The position numbers and the translations under genes were made by a program. The notes beneath the pieces were generated by a model, which worked only from the letters and a program-made list of their open reading frames with translations, was not told where the DNA came from and made no database searches. Shown here in pieces: positions 4,601-7,830 of a stretch of 51,926 nucleotides of DNA; the stretch's first letter is position 1; every line of letters begins with the position of its first letter. The stretch is from Bacteroidota bacterium (GTDB taxonomy: Bacteria > Bacteroidota > Bacteroidia > Flavobacteriales_D > Sanyastnellaceae). The stretch is taken from the NCBI GenBank assembly GCA_016868835.1, contig VGFR01000004.1, positions 1-51,926 on the forward strand. Reading direction: 5' to 3'.

Positions 4601-4702
4601 TTATTTCTTTTTATCCAAAATTTGAATGATTTCATCTCGAGAATTCGAGGGCCAATGTTCTTGAAGATCCAGGTTCAATTTGATTACTTCAATTTTACAC
4701 AT
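4601..4702 (-). CDS. Possible small ORF (33 aa) overlapping the end of the cyclase gene
   Basis: An ATG-started reading frame of 33 codons ending in TAA just before the bidirectional terminator. It begins MCKIEVIKLNLDL and ends with a Lys-rich tail (ILDKKK). Its ATG overlaps the stop region of the adenylate cyclase gene by 8 bp, an arrangement that allows translational coupling. It fills exactly the space between the cyclase stop and the terminator. I recognise no family. At this length it could be a chance frame, so the call rests on position alone. Confidence 0.3.
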   Translation of the reverse strand: MCKIEVIKLNLDLQEHWPSNSRDEIIQILDKKK

Positions 4703-5942
4703 GGTATTGCTTTTCGCCTAAAACAAAATACATTTTCATGAGTCCTTTGCCTTTCACTTCAATGTTGCCGCGATATTCGCAAGTGAAGATGTCCTTAACC
4801 AACTCGTAGGTTGTTTCGGTAATATTTACGAATCCTACCGCGCCAGTGCTTTCTGCTCTACTAGCAGTGTTTACGGTATCACCCCAGATGTCATATGCGA
4901 ACTTTTTAGTGCCAACAACTCCGGCTACGACTTCTCCAGTGTTGATGCCAAGCCTGCACTCATAGAAAGTTTCACCTTTGGCAATGCACTCGTTTTTGTA
5001 AGCTGTCATGTATTCTTGCATTGCAAGAGCAGCGCGCACCGCATCTGCAGGGTTGGAGTCATTCGCTATCGGTAATCCCCCCGCGCACATATATGCATCT
5101 CCAATGGTTTTGATTTTTTCAAGGTTGTATTTTTCTATAATTGCGTCAAAAGCTGAGAAAAATCTATTCAATTCTTCAATCACTTCCTCAGGCGTCTTGC
5201 TTGCGCTACTTACAGTAAATCCTTTGAAATCTGTAAATAGAACAGTGACTTTTTGATAGTGTTTCGCACTGGCCTTCCCTGTCAATTTAAGTTCATCAGC
5301 TATCTCATCGGGCAAAATATTGCGAAGCAATTTATCTGATTGGGCCTTTTCACCAGCCAACGCATCTTTGGCCTCAATCAAGGCTATTTTGAATTTAATA
5401 TTCGAAATGGTTAGTCTGTAGCGTGTCTCAATGAGCACGAACATAAAAATAGCCACAACAATAAGCAGTAGTCCACCATTTATAAGAGCCTCTTGTGTAT
5501 TCAATTGATGGTTCATTTGAAAAAAATAGCCCGTTGCAGTAATTGAAATAATTATGATGGCTAATGAGTAATGCCAACTCCACATGACAAACATACCTCC
5601 GCCTATGAATAAGGCGAGGTAATTGAGTGAATGCCCTGTTAAATCGTCTGCATTGATAGCACTGTATGTGAAAGCATTTTGCAAAGAAATAAGCAGAAAG
5701 GGTATGAAAATAAGTGTTTTAGAATTAATGAATTTGTGCTTATGAGCCAACAAAGAGAGTGCACTTATGATTGAAATGCTTAAGCGCAGCGACATGATTT
5801 GATTGAAGGCCTGTGGGATGTTGAAATAGTCCGTAATTCCAAACACAGGGTCAAAAATAACCGCTATCCAAGCGCCGTACCTATGGTATCTCGAGGAAGA
5901 AATTTCTAAATCTTCTTCCCAGACTAATTTTGAACTCTCCAT
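4695..5942 (-). CDS. Membrane-anchored class III adenylate cyclase
   Basis: A 415-residue protein. The first 175 residues hold about five to six hydrophobic helices (roughly 50-65, 76-95, 105-120, 125-142, 155-172). A short helical linker with KLLRNILPDEIADELK precedes the cyclase catalytic domain (about 230-408). The two metal aspartates appear in LFTDFKGFT (D238) and TIGDAYM (D282). The substrate-selecting residues are Lys278 and Asp351 (AYDIWGDTVNTASR), the adenine-type pair, so it should make cAMP rather than cGMP. The transition-state residues N358 and R362 are present. The membrane part resembles a sensor but has no named domain. The gene stands alone on the minus strand, convergent with metK. 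Confidence 0.9.
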   Translation of the reverse strand: MESSKLVWEEDLEISSSRYHRYGAWIAVIFDPVFGITDYFNIPQAFNQIMSLRLSISIISALSLLAHKHKFINSKTLIFIPFLLISLQNAFTYSAINADDLTGHSLNYLALFIGGGMFVMWSWHYSLAIIIISITATGYFFQMNHQLNTQEALINGGLLLIVVAIFMFVLIETRYRLTISNIKFKIALIEAKDALAGEKAQSDKLLRNILPDEIADELKLTGKASAKHYQKVTVLFTDFKGFTVSSASKTPEEVIEELNRFFSAFDAIIEKYNLEKIKTIGDAYMCAGGLPIANDSNPADAVRAALAMQEYMTAYKNECIAKGETFYECRLGINTGEVVAGVVGTKKFAYDIWGDTVNTASRAESTGAVGFVNITETTYELVKDIFTCEYRGNIEVKGKGLMKMYFVLGEKQYHV

Positions 5943-6135
5943 TTCGAAAGTTATTCAAATTGAAAGTGAATTTAGTTAAAAATCGTATTGTTAACAAACA
6001 GAGAGTCGGGAATTTAATTATAATGCTTTTTTCGCTGTTTGTGAGTATCGAAATTTGTGCTCTTTGTCTGCTTTGCAAGTAATCTAAGGAGCTCTATTTG
6101 TTCCGAAAAGCGTATTGATTGAAAAGCAATTCAAG

Positions 6136-6144
6136 TTATTCACA
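6136..6144 (+). promoter_or_regulatory. DnaA-box match upstream of dnaB (distal)
   Basis: TTATTCACA is a perfect match to the DnaA-box consensus TTATNCACA. It lies 114 bp before the chosen dnaB ATG in the 307-bp intergenic region 5943-6249. Confidence 0.45.
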
Positions 6145-6188
6145 ACTTTTCTTCAATCGGTATGTGCAGAAGTTTCTACCCACAATAC

Positions 6189-6197
6189 TTATGCACA
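6189..6197 (+). promoter_or_regulatory. DnaA-box match overlapping the dnaB promoter (proximal)
   Basis: TTATGCACA is a second perfect TTATNCACA match in the same orientation, 53 bp from the first. It ends 4 bp before the -7 element at 6202. A protein bound here would sit in the promoter spacer and could repress or modulate dnaB. Confidence 0.45.
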
Positions 6198-6201
6198 AAC
6201 G

Positions 6202-6209
6202 TATTTTTG
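6202..6209 (+). promoter_or_regulatory. -7 promoter element of dnaB
   Basis: TATTTTTG matches TAnnTTTG and lies 40 bp before the ATG at 6250. Its position inside the longer reading frame argues against the upstream TTG start at 6115. Apart from this element and the DnaA-box matches, I see nothing else in the gap 5943-6249. Confidence 0.55.
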
Positions 6210-6249: not shown

Positions 6250-7830
6250 ATGCCCGCCGAAAGAAATACTCGTATTACACGAAAAGATAGAGCCACAACC
6301 GCGCAACAATTTGCATCCATTGAGGCCGGTAAACTGCCACCACAAGCCCTAGATCTCGAAGAAGCTGTGCTTGGTGCCATGCTGTTGCAAAGCGATGCCA
6401 TAACCGCAGCAATCGATATTCTAAAGCCTGAATCTTTTTACAAAGAAGCCAACGGAATTATTTTCAATACCATTCGGGAAATGTTCGGTAAAGGAGAGGT
6501 AACGGATATTCTAACCATTACCCAAAATTTAAAAAAGGCAGGTCAACTCGAATACGTCGGAGGCCCACTCTATTTGGCCCGATTAACAAACAGGGTCACC
6601 TCCGTGGCCAATGTGGAAACCCACGCCCGCATCATCTCTCAGAAATTTATTCAGAGAGAACTTATACGAGTGTCGAGTGATATTATTCACGACGCATATG
6701 AAGAAACTACAGACACTTTTGATTTACTAGATCGCGCAGAAGGAAATATATTCCAAGTAGCAGAGGGGAACATTCGAAAAAACTCAGACAAGATGAACAA
6801 TCTTGTTAAAGCAGCCATGGACGCTATTGAGCAAGCAAGACAAAATAAATCAGGTGTCAGCGGAGTCCCTACAGGATTCCCAGGTTTAGATAAATTAACC
6901 GGAGGATGGCAACGCTCAGATATGATTGTATTGGCAGCAAGACCTGGTATGGGGAAAACGGCCTTCGTCTTATCCATGGCTCGAAACATTGCCGTGGATT
7001 TTCAAAAGCCAGTAGCTGTGTTCTCTCTAGAAATGAGTGGTGTGCAGTTGGTACAACGTCTCATGGCTAGTGAATCTGAAATCAATTCAGAGAAATTAAG
7101 AAAAGGGCAATTGGAATCGCACGAAGTACATCAGTTAACACAGAAAATCACCAAATTATCAGAGGCGCCCATTTTCATTGATGACACTCCCGCTTTATCC
7201 GTGTTCGAATTAAGAGCAAAATGCCGCCGTTTGAAGTCCAGCGCGGGTATTGAACTCGTAATCATAGATTACTTGCAGCTGATGTCTGCCGGAGACTCCA
7301 AGGGCGGTAATCGCGAACAAGAAATTAGTACCATTTCGCGAAGCATAAAACAAATTGCAAAGGAATTGGATATCCCCGTAATTGCTCTATCCCAGCTCTC
7401 AAGATCTGTAGAGACCAGAGGCGGTGATAAACGCCCCATGCTTTCAGACCTCCGTGAATCGGGAGCTATTGAGCAAGATGCAGACATCGTTGGTTTTATT
7501 TATCGTCCGGAATACTACGGATTCACAGAGTTCAATGACAATGAACGCTCCCCCGCTCAGGGTATGGCAGAACTTATCATTGCCAAGCACAGGAACGGAG
7601 GCCTCGATGCCATTCGCTTGCGTTTCCTTTCCAATTTGGCCAAATTCGCTGATCCAGAGGGATACAATTTCGATAATCCATTTGCCCAGCAGCCCGCAAG
7701 TAGAGGCATTTTTTCAAATCAAGATTTTATGCAAAGCGGACCAACAACCATTACTGTTTCGTCGAAAATGAATGAATTAGACGACGAAGACTACAACTAC
7801 CAAGGTGGTGGGGGCGATGTGCCGTTTTAA
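6250..7830 (+). CDS. dnaB: Replicative DNA helicase DnaB
   Basis: A 526-residue hexameric 5'-3' helicase that unwinds DNA at the replication fork. The N-terminal scaffold domain begins at LPPQALDLEEAVLGAMLL (about 30-130). The RecA-like core starts at GVPTGFPGLDKLTGGW. Walker A is AARPGMGKTAF (about 229-237), the FSLEMS motif follows, Walker B is IELVIIDYLQLM, and the DnaB4 block VIALSQLSRSVETRGGDKRPMLSDLRESG is intact. The tail ends DDEDYNYQGGGGDVPF, an acidic C-terminus of a kind common in Bacteroidota DnaB. The ATG at 6250 was chosen because homologs start near here and the promoter lies at 6202; the in-frame TTG at 6115 would add 45 unlikely residues. The stop shares TTAA with the convergent mannosidase. 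Confidence 0.97.
   Translation: MPAERNTRITRKDRATTAQQFASIEAGKLPPQALDLEEAVLGAMLLQSDAITAAIDILKPESFYKEANGIIFNTIREMFGKGEVTDILTITQNLKKAGQLEYVGGPLYLARLTNRVTSVANVETHARIISQKFIQRELIRVSSDIIHDAYEETTDTFDLLDRAEGNIFQVAEGNIRKNSDKMNNLVKAAMDAIEQARQNKSGVSGVPTGFPGLDKLTGGWQRSDMIVLAARPGMGKTAFVLSMARNIAVDFQKPVAVFSLEMSGVQLVQRLMASESEINSEKLRKGQLESHEVHQLTQKITKLSEAPIFIDDTPALSVFELRAKCRRLKSSAGIELVIIDYLQLMSAGDSKGGNREQEISTISRSIKQIAKELDIPVIALSQLSRSVETRGGDKRPMLSDLRESGAIEQDADIVGFIYRPEYYGFTEFNDNERSPAQGMAELIIAKHRNGGLDAIRLRFLSNLAKFADPEGYNFDNPFAQQPASRGIFSNQDFMQSGPTTITVSSKMNELDDEDYNYQGGGGDVPF

Follow-up and report, generated by a model that had tools for sequence, protein, structure and literature searches.

In the DNA upstream of the replicative helicase gene dnaB, we find a conserved DnaA box together with a weak tandem partner, and we judge it probable, at roughly two chances in three, that the two form a DnaA site from which DnaA controls the transcription of dnaB, most likely by activation. 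Consensus boxes near the dnaB promoter exceed chance, and comparison of related genomes suggests that the site in the window (the whole stretch of 51,926 nucleotides that was analysed) exemplifies an element found repeatedly in front of dnaB across the Bacteroidia. The comparison also suggests that Bacteroidia tie the supply of helicase to the replication initiator DnaA. The control of replication initiation has been little studied in this major gut and aquatic group, and a conserved site at dnaB with none at dnaA offers a concrete, testable regulatory link as well as a motif from which to begin defining the DnaA box in this class.

The start codon of dnaB is the ATG at 6250, and a profile search identified the gene with 552 bits against the TIGR00665 cut-off of 385, in agreement with an earlier sequence-only reading of this DNA. 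A gap of 307 bp separates dnaB from a divergent cyclase-type gene (4695-5942, minus strand), which encodes a membrane protein whose C-terminal domain is of the adenylate/guanylate cyclase type (PF00211). The features of the gap are collected in Table 1, in which start codons are those nearest the match and promoter elements are predicted, the −7 element following the consensus described for Bacteroidota (PMC9723704, PMC2483708). The genome, a draft of 216 contigs, encodes an intact DnaA including domain IV (PF08299). Both plus-strand matches to the box consensus that the earlier reading had listed are exact, and its view that two of them are improbable by chance in this gap was borne out: among 20,000 dinucleotide-shuffled versions of it, only 3 held at least two matches. 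Over the whole window, the consensus shows no enrichment (3 matches, 2.95 expected), and in the genome it is barely enriched (77 matches vs 63 for the reversed pattern). Another close box pair of the same genome (C1:16603/16698) was rejected as a cluster, as it lies in and beside the coding sequence of unrelated genes.

Table 1. Features at the dnaB upstream region, in window coordinates.
Feature	Position	Strand	Basis
Invariant 13-mer CAAGTTATTCACA enclosing box 1	6132-6144	+	Identical in 7/7 genus members with dnaB
DnaA box 1 (putative), TTATTCACA	6136..6144	+	Exact match to TTATNCACA
Weak tandem half-site TTTTCTTCA, 2 bp past box 1	6147..6155	+	6/8 motif positions; candidate double-box partner, inferred
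One-mismatch DnaA box TTCTGCACA	6163..6171	-	Not kept in genus; chance possible
DnaA box 2 (putative), TTATGCACA, in promoter spacer	6189..6197	+	Exact match to TTATNCACA
Bacteroidota -7 element (predicted), TATTTTTG	6202..6209	+	Sequence; consensus TAnnTTTG
dnaB, replicative DNA helicase, 526 aa, complete	6250..7830	+	TIGR00665, PF03796/PF00772 above cut-offs

Conservation within the genus singles out box 1. The sample comprised nine genomes, seven of them with a dnaB match, and all seven carry the 13-mer at the equivalent place, 64-66 bp before a TA(A/T)TTTTG sequence that is itself kept at the predicted −7 position in every genus member with dnaB, while the DNA upstream of box 1 no longer aligns well. 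Box 2 is absent from the six other members. The sequence-only reading had named conservation of the boxes in relatives as a check and had laid its emphasis on the one beside the −7 element; within the genus, conservation holds for box 1 only, and the emphasis was misplaced, box 2 being private to this genome. It had also described box 2 as touching the −7 element, from which it is separated by the stated 4 bp, so that the box abuts the element without touching it. In one relative examined (G007), the cyclase-type gene is not beside dnaB, and two small divergent open reading frames adjoin dnaB in its place; because the neighbouring gene changes between relatives, the box belongs with dnaB. Next to dnaB in that relative (L006:314-980, minus strand), a small gene pair resembles HigB/HigA-type toxin–antitoxin genes on reading of the translations. 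Dispersed short repeat-like units, for example TTCGGATGAAT and ACGCAGTAGGAA, are seen about 100-400 bp before dnaB in L003 and L005-L008; they lie upstream of the conserved box and vary among the genus members, and no tandem array was reported in L006. The relatives used bear names that point to uncultured Flavobacteriales. Within the family, the strict box was found in 9 of 82 loci and a looser form in 19 of 82, many sister genera being without a recognisable box; some have TGTTGAGAA-type sites, which may be degenerate boxes.

Across the class, the enrichment before dnaB is pronounced. A first set of 181 dnaB upstreams (250 bp each) gave 45 strict matches vs 2 for the reversed pattern, and the matches concentrate in the 200 bp before dnaB (43 in 35.8 kb). 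A further 136 loci, taken later as a second set from genomes across the class and spanning many families, gave 40 strict matches vs 0 for the reversed pattern and 151 vs 6 for the looser motif; as this motif had been chosen on the first set, the second provides a fair test. A strict box is present in 34 and a loose box in 93 of these 136 loci. In all these counts, related genomes are non-independent observations. The intergenic upstreams of 206 other genes from the same loci, leaving out those shared with the dnaB gap, contain no strict match and 2 loose ones over 32.8 kb, compared with 39 strict and 144 loose matches over the 29.0 kb that precede dnaB. In 29 order-level relatives (L001, L186-L215), the dnaA upstreams yielded a single strict match in all and none in the own genus, with loose matches below the control (8 vs 13), and the nrdA upstreams of 23 genomes yielded 0 strict matches. 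Elsewhere in the phylum, outside this class, 30 dnaB loci gave 2 strict and 4 loose matches vs 0 in the control; the element is sparse there and may predate the class.

The Bacteroidia motif can be written as T(T/A)(A/T)TN(C/A)ACA. In a scan of every single substitution of TTATNCACA, pooled over both sets, TTATNAACA (132 vs 10), TAATNCACA (37 vs 6) and TTTTNCACA (34 vs 10) were tolerated, and most other substitutions stayed at about the control level. The arrangement of the boxes was analysed by an offset scan, again pooled over both sets, in place of a periodicity analysis of distinct box–box spacings, which was not significant. Among 234 sites, the commonest offsets of a second box in the same orientation are -11, -21, +11 and +21, and box pairs often start 11 or 20-22 bp apart. 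The offset of 11 bp in either direction, which leaves a gap of 2 bp, occurs in 28 distinct cases from many lineages before dnaB and in 0 cases around 107 background sites with the same motif. In the own genus, the second half at +11 matches only 5-6 of 8 motif positions in all seven members. What the present analysis observed is this geometry and the sequence itself, which is conserved and, among the genes examined, confined to dnaB. As E. coli DnaA prefers tandem box pairs 2-3 bp apart (PMC11317965), the 11-bp spacing favours DnaA as the binder, and by this analogy we regard the tandem geometry as the strongest argument for DnaA as the protein. Helical phasing between the box and the −7 element was also considered. 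For a period of 10.5 bp, the first set (n=50) gave an R of 0.53 and the second (n=55) an R of 0.17, with p 0.035 in a one-sided test for the same phase; the phase of the own genus is almost the reverse of that of the rest. Because the phasing failed in the second set, it was dropped as support for a contact with RNA polymerase.

A different DNA-binding protein with a similar recognition sequence might occupy the site and regulate dnaB instead. In the loose motif, A is more common than C at position 6 (132 vs 74), which differs from the classical DnaA box, and the motif is missing at the dnaA promoter, where autoregulation is usual. However, the E. coli consensus TTATCCACA is itself enriched before dnaB (29 vs 0 in the control), the C6 and A6 forms coexist within one upstream region and, from one sister genus to another, stand in for each other at the orthologous place, the tandem 2-bp spacing is the geometry of DnaA, and domain IV of DnaA hardly varies within the family, so that we consider another protein unlikely. 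For box 2, the balance is much closer: there is about an even chance that this box is a functionless chance match and that box 1 does the work, a possibility compatible with the DnaA site proposed here. The absence of box 2 from the other genus members speaks for it, whereas at 77 strict matches per 2.07 Mb, the probability of an extra one within about 110 bp of box 1 is well under 2%.

Two further functions were raised by the sequence-only reading, titration of DnaA and a part in the origin. In E. coli, DnaA can be titrated by boxes that lie outside oriC, singly or in pairs, and the locus could likewise be a DnaA reservoir that does not regulate dnaB. The box nevertheless stays at dnaB although the chromosomal position of the gene shifts, from 0.34 Mb in G020 to 2.2 Mb in G038, complete genomes that both have a loose box in front of it; moreover, one or two sites would add little to the strict matches present genome-wide. 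As the site follows the gene and not the chromosome position, titration is weakly disfavoured by the comparison, and we hold it to be quite improbable as the function of this locus. Still less credible, in our estimation barely worth entertaining, is that the locus forms part of the chromosomal origin. DnaA boxes do adjoin a replication gene here, and the origins of these genomes are unmapped, but there is no oriC-type cluster, with two perfect boxes in this gap and one conserved in the genus, and no GC-skew switch at the locus within the window. The position of dnaB relative to the skew, which the earlier reading had named as a check, could be followed in the two relatives and speaks against its origin proposal, the sampled minimum lying elsewhere in both: in G038 (one contig, 4.0 Mb), sampled skew places dnaB near the terminus side, with the origin between the samples at 3.5 Mb and 0, and in G020 (one contig, 4.1 Mb), where the skew is weak, dnaA is at 1.98 Mb.

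We thus return to DnaA as the probable regulator of dnaB, the proposal of the sequence-only reading that is well supported by the comparison, given the conservation, the enrichment in two sets, the double-box geometry and the absence of the motif before other genes. DnaA would bind box 1 and the weak partner 2 bp downstream of it, upstream of the dnaB promoter, and once bound would regulate dnaB transcription, most likely activating it, so that the supply of replicative helicase would track DnaA activity. In this genome alone, box 2 in the promoter spacer could add repression at high DnaA. The binding, the regulation and its direction are what we infer from the sequences. Activation is favoured because activators usually sit upstream of the core promoter, as the conserved box does, and because dnaB has been reported as part of the DnaA regulon in Caulobacter; the direction hence rests on position and analogy. 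The missing −33 element was rejected as evidence for activation, as dnaB promoters without a box lack it too. The sparse boxes in the own family, the frequent A6 and the unreliable phasing to the −7 element are points against the proposal. A broader version is that the Bacteroidia wire DnaA feedback to dnaB instead of dnaA by means of an ancestral, class-wide, relaxed double box with C or A at position 6, the dnaA promoter being without a box; we offer this tentatively, as it appears somewhat less probable than its negation.

Two other conserved arrangements of boxes were encountered in genus relatives. In seven of them (L373-L377, L380, L385; at about position 1500 in most), a head-to-head pair, TTATNCACA-AT-TGTTAATAA or the reverse, lies shortly before the −7 element of a gene for a DEAD-box RNA helicase, which makes this gene a further candidate DnaA target. 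In five (L378, L379, L381, L382, L384), a conserved intergenic block, TTTTATGAACA-N25-TGTGAATAAA, is found near a SufE-like gene; its flanking non-coding sequence is conserved, and it may be a DnaA site or an origin candidate.

DnaA control of a dnaB gene is already known, namely from Caulobacter; as far as the literature searched shows, the class-wide Bacteroidia site is undescribed. The search, with most subscription journals outside its scope, found neither a class-wide DnaA site before dnaB in Bacteroidia nor studies of Flavobacterium or Bacteroides that deal with the DnaA regulon or with DnaA ChIP, and a search with the box letters returned unrelated top matches except for a paper on cyanobacterial origins. 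In Caulobacter crescentus, dnaB is a member of the DnaA regulon with predicted DnaA boxes upstream of it, as far as the citing account goes (Hottes et al. 2005, cited in PMC8203912). This organism belongs to another phylum, and the evidence for the Bacteroidia case is conservation and geometry. The double boxes seen by ChIP-seq in E. coli resemble the Bacteroidia element in being tandem, with a 2-bp gap and commonly with one strong and one weak box; their named targets differ and include the upstreams of mutH, polA and purH (PMC11317965). Unlike in E. coli, start spacings of 20-22 bp are also common in the Bacteroidia, and in the own genus the second half scores low. The autoregulation of the dnaA promoter by DnaA in E. 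coli and B. subtilis (PMC8203912) has in common with the element described here that DnaA boxes lie close to the promoter of a gene for replication initiation, but the dnaA upstreams of the order-level relatives are nearly devoid of strict boxes, and in the Bacteroidia, the boxes are at dnaB instead.
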